From contig NZ_JBGGTQ010000002.1 in assembly GCF_041320705.1 (NCBI RefSeq), forward strand, positions 434,001 through 498,000: a DNA stretch of 64,000 nt. The letters run 5' to 3'. The position numbers and the translations under genes were made by a program. Below the pieces are notes generated by a model. It was not told where the DNA came from. It did no database searches and was given only the letters and a program-made list of their open reading frames with translations. Positions 49,066 to 56,865 of this stretch are shown piece after piece (the first letter of the stretch is position 1; every line of letters begins with the position of its first letter). This stretch comes from Kineococcus mangrovi (GTDB taxonomy: Bacteria > Actinomycetota > Actinomycetes > Actinomycetales > Kineococcaceae).

Positions 49066-50520
49066 TCACTGCAGCGCGGCGGTCAGGCGCATGACGTTGT
49101 CGAGGTAGCGCTGCCGGTACGGGCGGCGCGACCACTCCTGCGACGTCAGTTCGACCGACCGCGCGCGGTAGTCGTCGACGACCGCGGCGAGGTCGGCGAC
49201 GAACTGCGGTTCGAGGCCGAGCAGGGAGACCTCGTGGTCGAGGTTGAACGAGCGGATGTCCATGTTGCTGGACCCGATGACGGCCCGTTCGCCGTCCACG
49301 ACGAGCACCTTGGCGTGCAGGACGGCGGGCGCGGGCAGCCGGTGGATGCGCACCCCGGCGCGCAGCAGCGCGGAGTAGTACGACCGCTGCGCGTGGTGGA
49401 CCATGAACTGGTCGGCCTTCTCCGAGACGAACAGCTCCACCCGGACCCCGCGGTAGGACGCCGTCGTGATGGCCTGCTCCAGACCCTCGTCGGGGACGAA
49501 GTAGGGGCTGACGATCGACACCGTCCGCGTCGCGGCGTGGATGAGCGCGCAGAACATCCGCAGGTTCGGCTCCGTCGGGTAGCCCGGCCCCGAGGGGACC
49601 ACCTGGAACGCCCCGCTGGAACCGCCGGGTGCGCTCTCCTCGACCGCGGAGGCCACCTCGGTGAGGACCTCGCTGGTCTCGGCGTACCAGTCGGTCGCGA
49701 ACACCTCCTCCACCGACTGCACGACCGCGCCGGTGAGCTCGACGTTGAGGTCGACCCAGCGCCGGCCCGCGCGGACGTGCCGGGGTTTGAGGTAACCGGG
49801 GTCGACGAGGTTCTGCGACCCCACGAACGCGGTGCGCCGGTCCACCACGACGAGCTTGCGGTGGTTGCGCAGGTCCGGCCGGCGCCAGCGGCGGCGCAGC
49901 GGGTCGATGGGCATCGTGCGGTGCCACTCGACCCCGTCGGCGCTCAGCCGCTCGTTCATCCGCGCGTGCCCGGGGTACCCGCGCGCGCCGAGGTGGTCGT
50001 AGAGGAACCGCACGCGCACGCCCCGCGCCACCGCGCGGCGCAGCGCGTCGAAGAAGGGTTCCGTCGTCGGGTCCAGCGCGGCGACGTAGAACTCGACGTG
50101 CACGGTGCGCTCGGCGCGGTCGACGGCCCGGACGAGGGCGGGCACGAACTCGTCCTCGGCCAGCAGCCTCCGGTGGTCCCCCACGACGCACGGCAGGTAC
50201 GTCAACCGGCGGTTCAGCTCCAGCAGGGTGCGCAGGTGCTCGTCGACGACGACGCCCTCGGGCACGGCCGGCAGGTCCACGACGCTGTCGGCGATGACCT
50301 GGTTCGCCAGCTGCTGCACGTGGTGTCGTCGCCCCGTGACGTGGGGGCTGCCCAGGAGCAGGAACAGCGGCAGCCCGACGACGGGCAGGAAGAGGATGAG
50401 CAGGAGCCAGGCCGAGGACGACCCCGGCCGCCGGTCCTCCGGCACCGTGCCGATGGCCCACACCTTCACGGCGTAGTCGACGACGACGAGCAGCTCGCTG
50501 AGGAGCGCGACCCAGCTCAC
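49066..50520 (-). CDS. Cardiolipin synthase (phospholipase D type)
   Basis: A 484-residue membrane enzyme that would join phosphatidylglycerol units to cardiolipin. Two N-terminal helices (LLSELLVVVDYAVKVWAIG, WLLLILFLPVVGLPLFLLLG), then two PLD catalytic motifs: NHRKLVVVDRRTAFVGSQN and LHAKVLVVDGERAVIGSSN, each with the HxK-x4-D pattern. GTG at 50518-50520 begins 7 bp after the TetR stop, so it is the second gene of a TetR-cls operon. That links phospholipid composition to the divergent MMPL transporter. Confidence 0.93.
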   Translation of the reverse strand: MSWVALLSELLVVVDYAVKVWAIGTVPEDRRPGSSSAWLLLILFLPVVGLPLFLLLGSPHVTGRRHHVQQLANQVIADSVVDLPAVPEGVVVDEHLRTLLELNRRLTYLPCVVGDHRRLLAEDEFVPALVRAVDRAERTVHVEFYVAALDPTTEPFFDALRRAVARGVRVRFLYDHLGARGYPGHARMNERLSADGVEWHRTMPIDPLRRRWRRPDLRNHRKLVVVDRRTAFVGSQNLVDPGYLKPRHVRAGRRWVDLNVELTGAVVQSVEEVFATDWYAETSEVLTEVASAVEESAPGGSSGAFQVVPSGPGYPTEPNLRMFCALIHAATRTVSIVSPYFVPDEGLEQAITTASYRGVRVELFVSEKADQFMVHHAQRSYYSALLRAGVRIHRLPAPAVLHAKVLVVDGERAVIGSSNMDIRSFNLDHEVSLLGLEPQFVADLAAVVDDYRARSVELTSQEWSRRPYRQRYLDNVMRLTAALQ

Positions 50521-50527
50521 CGCCGGC

Positions 50528-51112
50528 TCACGCGCGCGACCCCCTGCGCGGCAGCAGGGACCGGCGACCCGTCTCCAGCAGCATCCGGCGCAGGTCCTCG
50601 TCGGGGATGTCCCGGCAGGACGCGTCGCCGAGCGGGCCGACGAGGCCGGACAGGAAGAACACGACCGCGACGCGGCGCTCGGCGTCGGCGTCGGGACCGG
50701 CGAGGAGTTCCCGCATCCGGTCCCCGATCTCGCGCATCCGGGGGTAGTTCTCCTGCAGGTGCGCGATGACCGGGTCGACCGCGGCGACCACGTACAGGCG
50801 CCGGACGTCGACGATGAGGTCGACGAGGCCTTCGAGCAGGACCTCCACCTGGGCTCGGCGACCGCGCCGGGCGCGCGCCGCCTCGAGGACTTCGAACAGG
50901 CGGTCGATGAACGGGGCCACGACACCGACGACGAGGTCGTCCTTCGTCCGGTAGTGGTAGTAGACGGCCGCCTTCGTGACCCCGACCTCGTCGGCGATCA
51001 TCTGCAGCGACGTCCCGCTGACCCCGTGCTCGGTGAACAGCCGCAGCGCGGCCTCGTGCAGGCGCTGACGCCCCGGCCCGGCGGACCGGGCCTCACCGGC
51101 CGTCCTCGTCAT
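50528..51112 (-). CDS. TetR family transcriptional regulator
   Basis: A 194-residue TetR regulator. HTH: QRLHEAALRLFTEHGVSGTS, MIADEVGVTKAAVYYHYRTK; C-terminal ligand domain ends with DEDLRRMLLETGRRSLL. ATG at 51110-51112 with GGAG just upstream (an earlier in-frame GTG only adds a basic leader). It is divergent from the MMPL fusion gene, and CTAG-centred dyads occupy the intergenic region, so it should repress both its own operon (with the cls gene) and the transporter. Confidence 0.92.
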   Translation of the reverse strand: MTRTAGEARSAGPGRQRLHEAALRLFTEHGVSGTSLQMIADEVGVTKAAVYYHYRTKDDLVVGVVAPFIDRLFEVLEAARARRGRRAQVEVLLEGLVDLIVDVRRLYVVAAVDPVIAHLQENYPRMREIGDRMRELLAGPDADAERRVAVVFFLSGLVGPLGDASCRDIPDEDLRRMLLETGRRSLLPRRGSRA

Positions 51113-51212
51113 GGGTCTCCTCGCTCGCGCGTGCGGGCCGCGTGGGAGCACTGTACCCAGGGCCCCGGTGAACACCCGCGCTACGACTTCCGGCGGATGC
51201 CGGACCACCCCT

Positions 51213-51282
51213 GGACTAGCCGATCGACTAGCACCGAAACGTTGGCGACCGGCGGGGCGCCGGGGTACCGTCGACTAGCCGA
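51213..51282. promoter_or_regulatory. TetR operators between the TetR and MMPL genes
   Basis: CTAGCCGATCGACTAG at 51216-51231 is a 16-bp dyad (14 of 16 positions symmetric). The decamer CGACTAGCCG or a close variant occurs at 51213-51222, 51225-51234 and 51272-51281, a direct array in the MMPL promoter region. Confidence 0.65.
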
Positions 51283-51364
51283 ACAGCAAGTTCCCTCGTC
51301 GCCGCCGGAGCCGACGGACCTCTCGACGCCCCCTCCCCCGTCGCCCTGCGAAGGAGCCCGCCCG

Positions 51365-54300
51365 ATGGCCACGCTGCTCTACCGACTCGGGCGGTTCAGC
51401 GCCCGGCGCCACTGGCTGGTGCTGGCCACCTGGGCCGTGATCGTGGCCGCGCTGGCGAGCCTGGCGTTCGGCCTGAAGCAGACGGCGGCGCAGGACACCA
51501 GCTTCTCGATCCCGGGCACCCAGGCCAGCGACGGTCTGGACCTGCTGGAGGAGAAGTTCTCGGCCGGGGCGAACAACGCCACCGCGACGGTCGTGTTCCA
51601 GGCCCCGCAGGGCGAGACGCTCACCGCCGCGAACGCGACCGTCGTCCAGGACGTGCTGAACGACGTCCGCGGCCTGGACGGGATCGCGTCGGTGAGCGAC
51701 CCGTTCGCCCAGCAGCAGCCGATGGTGTCGCAGGACGGGCGCATCGCCGCCGCCACGGTCACGTTCGACGGCACCGTGGGCGACGTCACCAGCGCGCAGG
51801 CCGACGCGCTCGAGAACGCCGCCGACCGGACGGTGGACGGGGTCCGCGTCGAGGTCACCTCCCAGGTGCAGCGCACCGAGGCCGGTCACACGAGCGAGGC
51901 CATCGGGGTCGCCGTCGCCGCCCTCGTCCTGGTCCTGACCTACGGCTCGCTCGCGGCGGCGGGGGCGAACCTGCTGACCGCCGGGCTCGGGGTCGGCGCG
52001 GGGTACCTCGGCATCATGGCCCTCGGCAAGGTCGTCTCGCTGTCCACGACGACGCCCGCCCTCGCCGGGATGCTCGGCCTGGCCGTCGGCATCGACTACG
52101 CCCTGTTCGTCTTCGCCCGCACCCGCACCGAGCTGCGGCGCGGGGAGGAGCTGGACCGGGCCATCGCCAAGGCCACCGGGACCGCGGGCACGGCGGTCGT
52201 CTTCGCCGGCACCACCGTCGTCATCGCCCTCGTCGGGCTGTCGGTCGTCAACATCCCCTTCCTCACCCAGATGGGTCTGGCCGCCGCCGCGACGGTCGCC
52301 GTCGCCGTGCTCGTCGCCCTCACCGCCGTCCCCGCCTTCCTCAAGGTCCTCGGCCTGCGCGTGCTGCCGAAGAAGGAACGCGGCCGCGACCGCGCCGGGC
52401 TGCGGGCCGTCGCCGACAGCGACGACCACGCCACCACGGACCTCGCCGGCCCAGGGTTCCTCGGCCGGTGGGCACGCGGGGTCACGGCCCACCCCGTGGT
52501 CGCCCTCCTGCTCGCCGTCCTGGCCGTCGGGGCGATCGCGATCCCGGTCGCCTCGATGCGCACCGCGCTGCCCTCGGCCGAGAACGCCGACCCGGCCACG
52601 TCGCAGCGCCAGGCGTACGACCTGCTCGTCGAGGGCTTCGGGCCGGGCTCGCAGGCCACGCTCGTCGTCCTGGTGAACGGCACCGACCCCGCCGACGTCG
52701 CCGCCGCGGCCGGGCAGGTGGCGGGCGAGGTGCAGGGCCTGCCGGACGTGGCCGCGGTCACCCCCGCGCTCCCCTCCCAGGACGGCACCGCGCAGCTCAT
52801 CACCGTCGTCCCCGCCTCCGGTCCGACCGACGAGCGCACGAGCGACCTGGTCCGCGCCATCAGGTCCGCGACGTCCGACACGGCCGGCGCGGAGGTCCTG
52901 GTCACCGGTCAGACGGCCCTCGACATCGACGTGACGGACGCCCTCAACGACGCCCTGCCCGTCTACATCGCCATCATCGTCGTGCTCGCGCTGTTCCTGC
53001 TGATCATGCTGTTCCGGTCGCTGGCGGTGCCGCTGCTGGCGACGGTCGGGTTCCTGCTGTCCCTCGGCGCCTCGCTCGGCTCGGTCGTGGCGATCTACCA
53101 GTGGGGCTGGCTGTCCGACGTCTTCCAGGTCGCCCAGCCCGGTCCGCTGCTGAGCTTCATGCCCGTCCTCGTCGTCGGGATCCTCTTCGGGCTCGCGATG
53201 GACTACCAGATGTTCCTCGTCTCGGCGATCCACGAGCAGCACGCCCACGGCCGCAGCCCGAAGGACGCGGTGCTGGCGGGGTTCCGCCGGTCGGCGCCCG
53301 TCGTCGTGGCGGCCGCGCTCATCATGTCCGGCGTCTTCGTCGGGTTCGCCACCAGCGGGGACCAGGTCATCGGCTCGATCGGCATGGCGCTGACGGTCGG
53401 GGTCCTCGCCGACGCCCTCGTCGTGCGCATGGTCATCATGCCCGCCGCCCTCACCCTCCTGGGCCGGGCCGCGTGGTGGATGCCGCGCTGGATGGGCCGG
53501 CTGGTGCCGAACGTGGACGCCGAGGGACGCGGGCTGGAAGCCCTGCTGGCCCGTGAGGGTGGGCAGGGCACCCCGGCAGCCCCCGCCGCGACGTCCGCCG
53601 AGGTCCCCGCCCCGCGCGAGGAGCGCCGCCACCCCGAGGGCACCCCCGACGGACCGCCGGCGGGCCTGCCCGCCGAGCAGCGCGTCGAGCGCGTCCTGGG
53701 CGACCTGCCGCTGGGCGTGGTGGGTCTCGTGACCGACTCCACCGGGCGCCCCCTGGAAGGTGCCGCGCTCACCGTCACCGACCACTCCGGACGGCAGCTG
53801 GCGCGGGCGTCGGCCGACGAGGTCGGGTTCTTCTGCCTGCCGCTGGAAGCCGGCGGGACGTTCGTCCTCATCGTCGCCGCGGCCGACGCCCGGCCCGTCG
53901 CGCACCTCGTCCCCGTCGCGGGCAGGGCCGTGCGCCACGACGTGCGCCTCGTCGGCAGCGCGGCCCTGCACGGGGTGCTGCGCAGCGCGGACGGTCCGGT
54001 CGCCGGGGCGGTGCTGACGCTGCTGGACGTCCAGGGCGCCGTCGTCGCCACCACCCGGACCGACGAGGAGGGCGCCTACCGCATCGCCGACCTCGTCGCC
54101 GGCAGCTACGTCCTCAGCGTGCTGTCGTCGGCGTTCCGGCCCGTCGCTCAGAACCTCGCGGTCGACCACGGCCGCGACGTCGAGCTCGACGTGACCCTGA
54201 GCGCCGGGGGTCGCCTCGTGGGGACGGTGGACACCGAGGACGGCACGCCCGTCGCCGAGGCGTCCGTCACGGTCGTCGACGAGAGCGGTGCGGTGGTGGA

Positions 54301-54490
54301 CACCGCCACGACCGACGTCGACGGCACCTTCGCCTTCGACGACCTCACCCGCGGGCGGTACACCCTCACCGCGGCCGGCTTCCCGCCGGTGGCCACGCCG
54401 GTCGAGGTCCCCGACGGGAGCCACCGGGAGGTCGAGGTGCGGCTGGGGCAGGCCGCCCAGCACGACCCCGACGAGGTCACCCGCCCCTGA
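51365..54490 (+). CDS. MMPL-family transporter fused to three C-terminal carboxypeptidase-regulatory-like domains
   Basis: A 1041-residue RND-superfamily transporter. Residues 1-710 carry two sets of six helices in the MMPL pattern: GRFSARRHWLVLATWAVIV, large extracellular loop, GMLGLAVGIDYALFVFARTR (GxxxDY proton-relay motif) and, in the second half, VGILFGLAMDYQMFLVSAIH. A linker of about 65 residues rich in Pro/Ala/Glu follows. Residues about 783-1035 are three consecutive beta-sandwich repeats of 78-84 residues, each with the pattern G-x-V-x-D-x2-G-x-P (LVTDSTGRPLEGAALTVTD; LRSADGPVAGAVLTLLD; TVDTEDGTPVAEASVTVVD) and a DEEGAYRI-like turn. Transporters of this family move lipids or drugs. 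ATG at 51365. Regulated by the divergent TetR. Confidence 0.92.
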   Translation: MATLLYRLGRFSARRHWLVLATWAVIVAALASLAFGLKQTAAQDTSFSIPGTQASDGLDLLEEKFSAGANNATATVVFQAPQGETLTAANATVVQDVLNDVRGLDGIASVSDPFAQQQPMVSQDGRIAAATVTFDGTVGDVTSAQADALENAADRTVDGVRVEVTSQVQRTEAGHTSEAIGVAVAALVLVLTYGSLAAAGANLLTAGLGVGAGYLGIMALGKVVSLSTTTPALAGMLGLAVGIDYALFVFARTRTELRRGEELDRAIAKATGTAGTAVVFAGTTVVIALVGLSVVNIPFLTQMGLAAAATVAVAVLVALTAVPAFLKVLGLRVLPKKERGRDRAGLRAVADSDDHATTDLAGPGFLGRWARGVTAHPVVALLLAVLAVGAIAIPVASMRTALPSAENADPATSQRQAYDLLVEGFGPGSQATLVVLVNGTDPADVAAAAGQVAGEVQGLPDVAAVTPALPSQDGTAQLITVVPASGPTDERTSDLVRAIRSATSDTAGAEVLVTGQTALDIDVTDALNDALPVYIAIIVVLALFLLIMLFRSLAVPLLATVGFLLSLGASLGSVVAIYQWGWLSDVFQVAQPGPLLSFMPVLVVGILFGLAMDYQMFLVSAIHEQHAHGRSPKDAVLAGFRRSAPVVVAAALIMSGVFVGFATSGDQVIGSIGMALTVGVLADALVVRMVIMPAALTLLGRAAWWMPRWMGRLVPNVDAEGRGLEALLAREGGQGTPAAPAATSAEVPAPREERRHPEGTPDGPPAGLPAEQRVERVLGDLPLGVVGLVTDSTGRPLEGAALTVTDHSGRQLARASADEVGFFCLPLEAGGTFVLIVAAADARPVAHLVPVAGRAVRHDVRLVGSAALHGVLRSADGPVAGAVLTLLDVQGAVVATTRTDEEGAYRIADLVAGSYVLSVLSSAFRPVAQNLAVDHGRDVELDVTLSAGGRLVGTVDTEDGTPVAEASVTVVDESGAVVDTATTDVDGTFAFDDLTRGRYTLTAAGFPPVATPVEVPDGSHREVEVRLGQAAQHDPDEVTRP

Positions 54491-55320: not shown

Positions 55321-55833
55321 TCAGCCGGCGCGGTAGTCGTAGGTGTTCGACTCCATGCGCTCTGACACCTGGATCACGAACTGGTCCGTCGTCACGAGCG
55401 TGTCGTGTCGGGCTCCAGCGGTGGCCATGGCGATGCGGTCGCCGAGCGAGAGTCGCCCGACCTTGCGGCCCGCATCGAGCTCGGCCTGCCGAGCGCCCTT
55501 CTCCGCATGGAGGACCTCCGCGATGTGCGCGGCCTCTGCGAGGCCGAACGGGACGATGCGGATCCCCGCACTGCTCAGGTCGTCGCCGACGCTGCGGGCT
55601 TCTTCGTCCAGTCCGAACTTCCGACTGAGGACCGTCGCGACCTCGACCACGGTGGGGACCGCGACGTTGACGCTGGTCACGTCGACGGTCGCGAACACGT
55701 CGTCGATGCGAGCGCGACTGTCAGACGTCTCCTGCGCGTCCGGATCGAGCCAGGACAAGACGGCGCACGCGTCGAGCAGCAGCGGTGTTCCCAGCGGGGA
55801 GCTGGCGATGACGGCGTGAGGGTCCTCGCTCAC
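55321..55833 (-). CDS. PIN-domain toxin of a type II toxin-antitoxin pair
   Basis: A 170-residue VapC-like ribonuclease. The acidic active-site residues can be placed: Asp21 in PLLLDACAVLSWL, Glu64 in VPTVVEVATVL, Asp132 in LSLGDRIAMATA and Asp150 in LVTTDQF. It is 30-40 residues longer than typical VapC, with extra N-terminal and central sequence. The GTG at 55831-55833 overlaps the antitoxin stop (GTGA), the usual coupling. Expected target is a tRNA or rRNA site; not predictable here. Confidence 0.85.
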   Translation of the reverse strand: MSEDPHAVIASSPLGTPLLLDACAVLSWLDPDAQETSDSRARIDDVFATVDVTSVNVAVPTVVEVATVLSRKFGLDEEARSVGDDLSSAGIRIVPFGLAEAAHIAEVLHAEKGARQAELDAGRKVGRLSLGDRIAMATAGARHDTLVTTDQFVIQVSERMESNTYDYRAG

Positions 55834-56096
55834 TCGACGCCCTTCTCGGCGAGGGCATCCGTTTCTTCACCGTGGTACTCGGCCCACGCCTGCTGGGCGG
55901 ACACGCCGCCACCCTTGCGTCGGTACTTCGCACGAACACGGGCCTGCATGGCGGCGCGGGTCTCGAAGACGATGCGGCCAGGACCTTCGGCGTGCGGGAT
56001 CAGTTCGGAGCCCTCGGTGATACCTGCCGCAGCGAGGACCTCTGCGGGCACGACTGTTCGCCGCTTGGAGTCGATCTTCAGTGCCTGCACGCTCAT
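55830..56096 (-). CDS. AbrB/SpoVT-type antitoxin
   Basis: An 88-residue antitoxin upstream of the PIN toxin. The N-terminal swapped-hairpin DNA-binding domain reads VQALKIDSKRRTVVPAEVLA and AAGITEGSELIPHAEGPGRI; the C-terminal part (AKYRRKGGGVSAQQAWAEYH) would wrap the toxin. ATG at 56094-56096. Autorepression of the operon is expected from the family; the promoter lies in the repeat-bearing gap to the right. Confidence 0.82.
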   Translation of the reverse strand: MSVQALKIDSKRRTVVPAEVLAAAGITEGSELIPHAEGPGRIVFETRAAMQARVRAKYRRKGGGVSAQQAWAEYHGEETDALAEKGVE

Positions 56097-56409: not shown

Positions 56410-56865
56410 GTGGCCCGACCCCGTGCTTTCGACGTACCCGCCGCGATCACCGCCGCCGGCGAGGTCTTCGCGCGCCTGGGCTACTCAGCTACCTCCATCG
56501 ACGACCTGGTCAACGCCCTGGGCCTGCATCGCGGCAGCCTCTACCAGGCCTTCGGCAGCAAACGCGGCCTCTTCCTGGCCGCGCTGCACCAGGCGGTGCA
56601 CGACGAACTCCCCCAAGCCGGCGCCAACGTCGCCGCCCATCCCGACACCTGCGCCAAGGAGCTGATCGAAGGACCCGCCCTCGACCTCCTCCTCGTGGGC
56701 GCACTAGAACTCGCCCCCAGCGACGCAGAAATCCGCGACCTCGTCGCCACCGCGTGCACCGACCTCGACCAGCACTTCACCCCTCGCGACGGCCCCCCGG
56801 CCGCGGAGTTGCTGGGTCGGCGCCTGCTGCGACGAGCTCAGCTCGACTCTTTCGTCCCCCACTGA
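56410..56865 (+). CDS. TetR/AcrR family regulator
   Basis: A 151-residue TetR-type regulator, short for the family (usual 185-220) but with an intact HTH: RAFDVPAAITAAGEVFARLG, SIDDLVNALGLHRGSLYQAF, GSKRGLFLAAL. The C-terminal domain is truncated or minimal and ends LGRRLLRRAQLDSFVPH. GTG at 56410; TTGACC at 56375-56380 could be the minus-35 of a leaderless transcript. It is followed after 30 bp by a small unknown gene, likely co-transcribed. Confidence 0.88.
   Translation: MARPRAFDVPAAITAAGEVFARLGYSATSIDDLVNALGLHRGSLYQAFGSKRGLFLAALHQAVHDELPQAGANVAAHPDTCAKELIEGPALDLLLVGALELAPSDAEIRDLVATACTDLDQHFTPRDGPPAAELLGRRLLRRAQLDSFVPH

Follow-up and report, generated by a model that had tools for sequence, protein, structure and literature searches.

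The proton relay of MmpL3, which belongs to the MMPL family of the RND superfamily, is made up of two Asp-Tyr pairs, and MmpL3-type tails are not known to be built of transthyretin-like domains. The regulatory domains of carboxypeptidases D, N and M, like the N-terminal extension of SusC, are extracytoplasmic. Regarding gene order, the closest studied arrangement to the locus described here appears to be FarR/FarE of Staphylococcus aureus, in which a TetR-family regulator is encoded divergently from an MMPL/RND exporter that confers fatty-acid resistance, and FarR is also required for the expression of farE (excerpts of PMC10019231). The likeness considered here is one of gene arrangement, and a difference is that no tail on the exporter is mentioned in those excerpts. 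SusC represents a transporter with one carboxypeptidase-regulatory-type domain (excerpts of PMC8286568), and the YceI proteins include BcnA, a secreted bacterial lipocalin (excerpts of PMC7565204). In the latter source, the YceI and carboxypeptidase regulatory terms belong to different proteins, and a YceI gene located beside sulfonamide-degradation genes comes with no tail in the excerpts of PMC6868719. In the open-access PubMed Central literature searched, we found no description of an MMPL- or MFS-tail fusion, or of its link with YceI proteins carrying the same repeat. MMPL and DHA2 transporters, TetR regulators and the PF13620 domain are each known; what those papers were not found to describe is the tail common to both transporter types and its link to repeat-YceI proteins.

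An MMPL exporter with three C-terminal beta-sandwich domains

The window analysed is a 64-kb stretch of DNA, and the coordinates given here are positions within it. At 49066–54490 an MMPL gene diverges from a tetR-cls operon (Table 1), just as had been read from the sequence originally. The 1041-aa product matched PF03176 (MMPL) in 2 stretches with 311.5 bits (cut-off 20.5, E 7.7e-93), and CarboxypepD_reg (PF13620) in 3 stretches with 116.4 bits (cut-off 32.3, E 7.5e-34). TetR_N was recognised by Pfam in the tetR product (56 bits, cut-off 24), and both PLDc_2 and PLDc exceeded their cut-offs in the product of cls; the latter missed the threshold of TIGR04265, the NCBIfam equivalog for bacterial cardiolipin synthase, with 286.7 vs 290 bits.

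Table 1. Features of the tetR-cls/MMPL locus, with positions in the 64-kb window.
Feature	Position	Strand	Remarks
cls, PLD-superfamily, cardiolipin-synthase-like, 484 aa, GTG start	49066..50520	-	Second gene of the tetR operon
tetR, TetR-family regulator, 194 aa	50528..51112	-	TetR_N E 3.5e-15; divergent from the MMPL gene
O1, operator-like, ACTAGCCGATCGACTAGC	51215..51232		2 mismatches to consensus; imperfect palindrome, 7/9 pairs; 5' of the MMPL promoter-like region
Promoter-like TTGGCG-18-TACCGT of the MMPL gene, tentative	51242..51271	+	Alignment of 10 regions
O2, operator-like, ACTAGCCGAACAGCAAGT	51274..51291		3 mismatches to consensus; 6/9 pairs; directly 3' of the -10-like element
MMPL exporter with C-terminal triple domain	51365..54490	+	ATG 51365, stop 54490; 1041 aa
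MMPL core, residues 1-725	51365..53539	+	Asp244-Tyr245 and Asp613-Tyr614 aligned to the MmpL3 pairs
Tail domain R1, residues ~781-861	53705..53947	+	PF13620, structure, fold match; limits hand-set
Tail domain R2, residues ~862-946	53948..54202	+	PF13620, structure, fold match; limits hand-set
Tail domain R3, residues ~947-1027	54203..54445	+	PF13620, structure, fold match; limits hand-set

The core resembles MmpL3 in that its residues 26–716 align with the structure 7nvh and both Asp-Tyr pairs (D244-Y245 and D613-Y614) are kept, but it falls far under the MmpL3 equivalog cut-off (191 vs 1400 bits). The full-length AlphaFold2 model, built on 28 aligned sequences, has a mean pLDDT of 69.3 and is weak in its membrane part, in which 12 membrane helices (one of them broken) were assigned by hand, in agreement with the 12-helix core originally predicted. 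Over tail residues 781–1030, the ten-residue blocks of the same model reach a pLDDT of 71–93, and three successive beta-sandwiches are formed between residues ~784 and 1027. Structure prediction of this region had been proposed together with the claim that the exporter ends in three beta-sandwich repeats; the tail modelled alone gave a pLDDT of 91.6, and Pfam, the model and the fold matches all bear the claim out.

When the individual domains were compared with known structures, R1 superposed on the carboxypeptidase D domains 5aq0 (Z 13.0, 1.2 Å over 79 residues) and 1qmu (Z 13.2, 1.3 Å over 80 residues). The best fold matches of R2 and R3 were other domains of the beta-sandwich class (3is0, Z 12.6, and 3e8v, Z 13.6, respectively), and R3 superposed on the SusC extension 9hfj with 2.1 Å over 78. 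As modelled, the tail domains appear to adopt a transthyretin-like fold. These superpositions of R1 and R3 represent the likeness to the carboxypeptidase D/N/M regulatory domains and to the SusC N-terminal extension; unlike in those proteins, the domains occur here three in a row and are predicted to be cytoplasmic. Pilin and SdrD-type proteins also occur among the fold matches of the tail, and the CnaB and SdrD B-type domains, which are related beta-sandwiches, match its sequence weakly. However, the 266-residue tail, which is acidic in composition and has one Cys, contains no Lys and thus cannot form a CnaB-type Lys-Asn isopeptide bond, so that a pilin-like CnaB identity was ruled out. Glycine, proline, alanine or hydrophobic residues occupy 48 of the 70 positions that are conserved in at least 85% of 31 tails.

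Conservation of the locus and of its intergenic region

A search that took in 59 relatives, our own genome included, returned, among the matches listed, full-length matches to the fused MMPL in genomes of the same genus only. The intact fused gene is present in 9 of the 11 genomes of the genus, so the fusion is not unique to this genome. G004, a draft of 1060 contigs, has the MMPL core and the tail split between two frames of a 5.7-kb contig, whereas no fused gene was found in G002. The original prediction called for a survey of the tetR-cls/MMPL-fusion neighbourhood, and its two halves fared differently: tetR is divergent from the MMPL gene in all ten loci compared, but cls adjoins tetR in 4/10 (our own, G006, G007 and G001). 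A cls gene with 72% identity is located on another contig in G003, and another copy, with 48–52% identity, was matched in 11/11 genomes (a partial match in G007). With six of the ten loci lacking cls at tetR and another copy present anyway, cls was ruled out as a constant partner; it is accessory, an optional passenger of the tetR operon. For the same reasons, the idea that phospholipids are made and exported under a common switch is not supported as the core feature of this locus.

An operator consensus, ACTAGCCGATCGGCTAGT, was derived by aligning the ten tetR-MMPL intergenic regions, where it appears as a repeated near-palindrome. Two sites with up to 3 mismatches are present in the window vs 0.01 expected from window shuffles, an expectation that flatters the pattern because the consensus came from the same loci. 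Such a site exists in 8/10 intergenic regions, and all ten have one when 4 mismatches are allowed; at the latter threshold two extra sites lie outside the ten regions, one of which precedes the second of two tandem MMPL copies in G003 (L075:11460, 2 mismatches). Across the whole genome, there are 3 operator sites with up to 3 mismatches, two of them at the tetR-MMPL region, against 2 for the reversed control pattern. A search for palindromes only (18-mers with at least 8/9 pairs) gave none in the tetR-MMPL intergenic region of the window vs 37 window-wide. In the other nine loci, it matched the operator-like site in L071, L073 and L076, another sequence in L072, L074, L075 and again L071, and nothing in L070, L077 and L078. 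Since the palindrome search by itself does not single this region out, the case for operators rests on conservation within the genus.

The two operator-like sites flank a conserved TTGGCG-18-TACCGT element, and a strict scan for sigma-70 promoters and terminators between 51100 and 51380 gave nothing. Closer to the MMPL start there is a second conserved element, similar to GTCGCCACCGGTGCCGAC, with no more than 2 mismatches in 8/10 regions. The common operators that had been proposed between tetR(-cls) and the MMPL gene thus have candidates that are conserved in the genus, and a shared regulation is suggested by the conservation of the region across loci; a local regulator probably acts on both the tetR and the MMPL genes.

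The tail on MFS exporters and the YceI gene behind them

The same genome encodes two more homologues of the tail, 44% identical to it, and each of them ends an MFS protein and consists of three CarboxypepD_reg (PF13620) domains. These carriers differ from the exporter of the locus in belonging to another transporter superfamily and, for one type, in usually having a YceI gene behind. The MFS3-type protein exceeds the DHA2 cut-off (245.5 vs 230.2 bits); DHA2 is also the best match of the MFS6-type protein, but this one remains under the cut-off with 159.9 bits.

A single-protein search of genome contigs gave 6 loci (4 in Pseudonocardia and 2 distant). With a profile made from 31 tails (E ≤ 1e-25, scoring no more than a few top candidates in each genome), matches were obtained for 15 of 396 genomes sampled from the phylum, 16 of 297 from the order and 54 of 394 from the class; these samples overlap and each includes our own genome. 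We examined 112 loci with 115 tail-bearing frames, a part of all the places listed. By the rule of the script, 99 of these frames match MFS, 10 match MMPL and 6 match neither. The MFS frames comprise 87 whose nearest reference is MFS3, with an identity of at least 50% in 36 of them, and 12 nearest to MFS6, and the MMPL frames are the nine of the genus, including that of the window, plus L179. Among the six remaining frames, L103, L182, L185 and L188 look soluble, L185 being truncated by the end of its contig; L178 was judged by eye to encode an MFS protein, its match extending beyond the frame start, and L078 is the G004 copy, by eye an MMPL broken in the draft. The three-repeat length is kept in most of the tail matches. 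The tail is therefore mainly a module of MFS exporters, with MMPL proteins as a minority carrier, a point that the original prediction missed.

The trees were rooted at their midpoints. In one of 55 tails, those carried by MMPLs of the genus cluster together (support 97/93) beside the MFS tails of the genus and one tail from another family; in a tree with other rows, the support for this cluster falls to 77/54. A single group (100/100) is also formed by the fused MMPLs of the genus when the cores are compared, and their nearest neighbours are untailed MMPLs. The protein of L179, which comes from another family, has three CarboxypepD_reg domains and an MMPL core 26% identical to that of the window, and its branches are very long. 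A single origin for L179 and the tailed MMPLs of the genus was rejected neither by the tail tree (p-AU 0.143) nor by the core tree (p-AU 0.123); an independent capture of the tail by L179 seems likely. As the tails outside the genus are nearly all on MFS proteins, the simplest story would be a transfer from MFS to MMPL in the lineage of the genus.

For each tailed exporter, a YceI match was sought in the next 1.5 kb downstream and on its strand. One is present for 31 of the 36 tailed MFS proteins with 50% identity or more to the MFS3 reference, 5 of the 51 less similar MFS3-class frames, none of the 12 MFS6-type exporters and none of the 9 tailed MMPL loci with enough downstream sequence. YceI is thus not an obligatory local partner, given its absence at 9/9 MMPL, 46/51 less similar and 12/12 MFS6 loci. 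The three partner YceI proteins scanned by Pfam have one CarboxypepD_reg and one YceI domain each, and in those read the repeat is at the N-terminus. No signal peptide was visible by eye in 8 repeat-YceI proteins, whose starts, near the repeat, were chosen by eye. With the start so chosen, the YceI frame overlaps the end of the MFS gene in our own genome and in one Pseudonocardia contig. A comparison of the tail repeats for the one closest to the YceI repeat gave no clear answer. The linkage at 31/36 loci, together with the three-repeat length being kept, suggests a specific partner, and it is the best clue to the role of the tail.

Membrane side and possible roles of the tail

From the alignment of the core to MmpL3 and the topology of the latter, the tail should begin in the cytoplasm. 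Near the membrane, Lys and Arg are richer in the loops assigned to the inside, where the helix ends of the model were placed manually. In addition, 12 of 21 untailed MMPL rows extend 193–243 residues past the core (one gene counted twice), and in the 8 of these that were inspected the junction resembles that of the fused exporter. A profile of the post-core regions of these 8 proteins finds ABC ATPases, which are cytoplasmic domains, with a best E of 2.9e-06 across ~55 positions, and Pfam by itself gave one weak ABC_tran match among the 8, below the cut-off. An ABC-ATPase-like remnant at the position of the tail in several related MMPLs indicates that the tail should be cytoplasmic as well. 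As judged from these sequence comparisons and from the 12 helices of the model, the cytoplasmic location originally predicted for the tail is well supported. It is very improbable that the tail is extracellular, as in pilins and surface adhesins, and reached through an odd number of crossings: the alignment over residues 26–716, the 12 helices, the positive-inside pattern and the ABC-like regions of the relatives all speak against it, and so do the repeat-YceI proteins read, which have no visible signal peptide, and the absence of Lys, which precludes a CnaB-type isopeptide bond. This is set against the fact that the first-listed multi-domain fold matches are Gram-positive surface proteins and that two relatives, SusC for the domain and BcnA for YceI, lie outside the cytoplasm (excerpts of PMC8286568 and PMC7565204).

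The reading that we favour, with moderate confidence, is that the exporter is under TetR control, uses protons to move a lipophilic compound and has in its tail a portable cytoplasmic module for docking and hand-over. TetR would repress its own operon and the exporter through the two sites around the exporter promoter; the binding of a ligand, which is probably either the substrate or some lipophilic stress compound, would free both promoters, the MMPL exporter would then be made, and it would move the lipophilic compound with the proton gradient. The ligand-release and proton-driven steps are proposed from what is known of these families and from the operator-like sites found. Repression as the sign of this regulation is tentative, since FarR is needed for the expression of farE. 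The tail may dock cytoplasmic carriers or partners, gather exporters, or both, and soluble carriers, for example the repeat-YceI protein whose gene adjoins one MFS class, could pass lipophilic cargo on to it. Against this reading stand the lack of a YceI gene at the tailed MMPL loci and the fact that BcnA, the known YceI lipocalin, is secreted. We put forward the recruitment of cytoplasmic carriers or partners, or the clustering of pumps, as a tentative proposal. A broader form of this idea, to which we give rather little credence, is a general actinobacterial exporter adaptor, in which the tails of MFS and MMPL proteins would dock YceI-type lipid carriers and unrelated pumps would be loaded from the inside; MMPL exporters would then perhaps have captured the tail twice independently. 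The readings weighed in this section overlap, and the confidence given to each does not add up to unity.

A possible, if somewhat doubtful, alternative is that the tail serves as a spacer, either structural or for oligomerisation, that stabilises or clusters the exporter in the membrane, with no role in cargo or carrier handling. Its presence on transporters of two superfamilies, the prevalence of Gly, Pro, Ala and hydrophobic residues at its conserved positions, the unrelated region that takes its place in other MMPLs and the absence of a YceI gene beside most of the tail loci examined would agree with a spacer. However, a YceI gene with the same repeat at most loci of one MFS type suggests a specific partner, and a kept three-repeat length also argues against a mere spacer. 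We consider it unlikely that the tail is instead a cytoplasmic, transthyretin-like domain that binds the substrate itself, without a carrier protein. The same tail occurs on exporters of different superfamilies, whose substrates are expected to differ, and the conserved residues show no obvious pocket (a weak test); on the other side are the predicted fold, the acidic composition and the lack of a partner gene at most loci. Also improbable, and slightly more so, is the membrane-lipid module of the original prediction, in which TetR would switch cardiolipin synthesis and lipid export together. The 7-base gap between tetR and cls, the operator region common with the MMPL gene and the gene order kept in G006, G007 and G001 fit such a module, as does the release of membrane phospholipid promoted by high FarE expression in S. 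aureus (excerpts of PMC10019231), but cls is missing beside tetR in most loci and every genome of the genus has a match to the other copy.

If the docking and hand-over module that we favour exists, it would have consequences beyond this locus. Work on MMPL exporters and work on MFS exporters treat them as distinct machines, and a common inward-facing tail would imply a common step of loading or clustering; it would also give the actinobacterial genes for tailed MFS proteins and the repeat-YceI genes beside them one joint, testable function. For biochemistry, the tail is a soluble module with a confident model. As many of its carriers are large-genome actinobacteria (a genus of 6–11 Mb, perhaps Streptomyces), it may bear on the export of lipophilic compounds by antibiotic producers.

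The tetR–MMPL intergenic region

Besides the operator-like sites, the intergenic region contains a second conserved near-palindrome, which resembles GTCGCCACCGGTGCCGAC. When the ten tetR–MMPL regions were inspected, this element was present with at most two mismatches in eight of them.

Features of the intergenic region and of loci carrying the triple tail
Feature	Position	Genome	Arrangement
Near-palindrome, GTCGCCACCGGTGCCGAC-like	51298-51315		between operator-like sites and MMPL start
Second MMPL copy	L075:11460-13508	G003	tandem, after fused copy
MFS-tail and MMPL-tail genes	L077:2287-9112	G009	adjacent, convergent
Distant MMPL-tail fusion	L179:525-3950		
Soluble-looking protein with CarboxypepD_reg repeats, apparently without transporter	L103:1441-2244		
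Same	L182:3100-4770		
Same	L188:2607-3560		

Tail-bearing loci elsewhere

The tandem MMPL copy of G003, a genome of the same genus, is preceded by an operator-like site with two mismatches. In the distant fusion from another family (L179), the Asp-Tyr pairs were read by eye as Asn-Tyr and Asp-Phe, and its proton relay may be altered because of these replacements. Regarding the tails apparently lacking a transporter, an MFS match lies on the opposite strand, about 2 kb from the soluble-looking protein of L188. Tandem pairs of tail-bearing MFS genes were observed in L186 and L187 (two genomes, one family).

Untailed MMPL relatives

The C-terminal region (about 200 residues) of the MMPL exporters of L091, L022, L023, L025, L026, L027, L031 and L034, from other families of the same order, resembles a degenerate ABC-ATPase domain. 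A profile of these regions matched ABC ATPases at E 2.9e-06, and the resemblance was weak when they were compared with Pfam. A fusion of MMPL with an ABC remnant is itself unusual.

Other neighbouring frames

By eye, a ClpX-like frame adjoins the lipocalin-like YceI gene of the own genome (L006:1757-3134). Within the window, two small neighbouring frames on the minus strand (55321-56096) were also recognized by eye, one resembling a PIN-domain toxin, the other an antitoxin of the AbrB type, as was a second TetR-like frame (56410-56865, plus strand).
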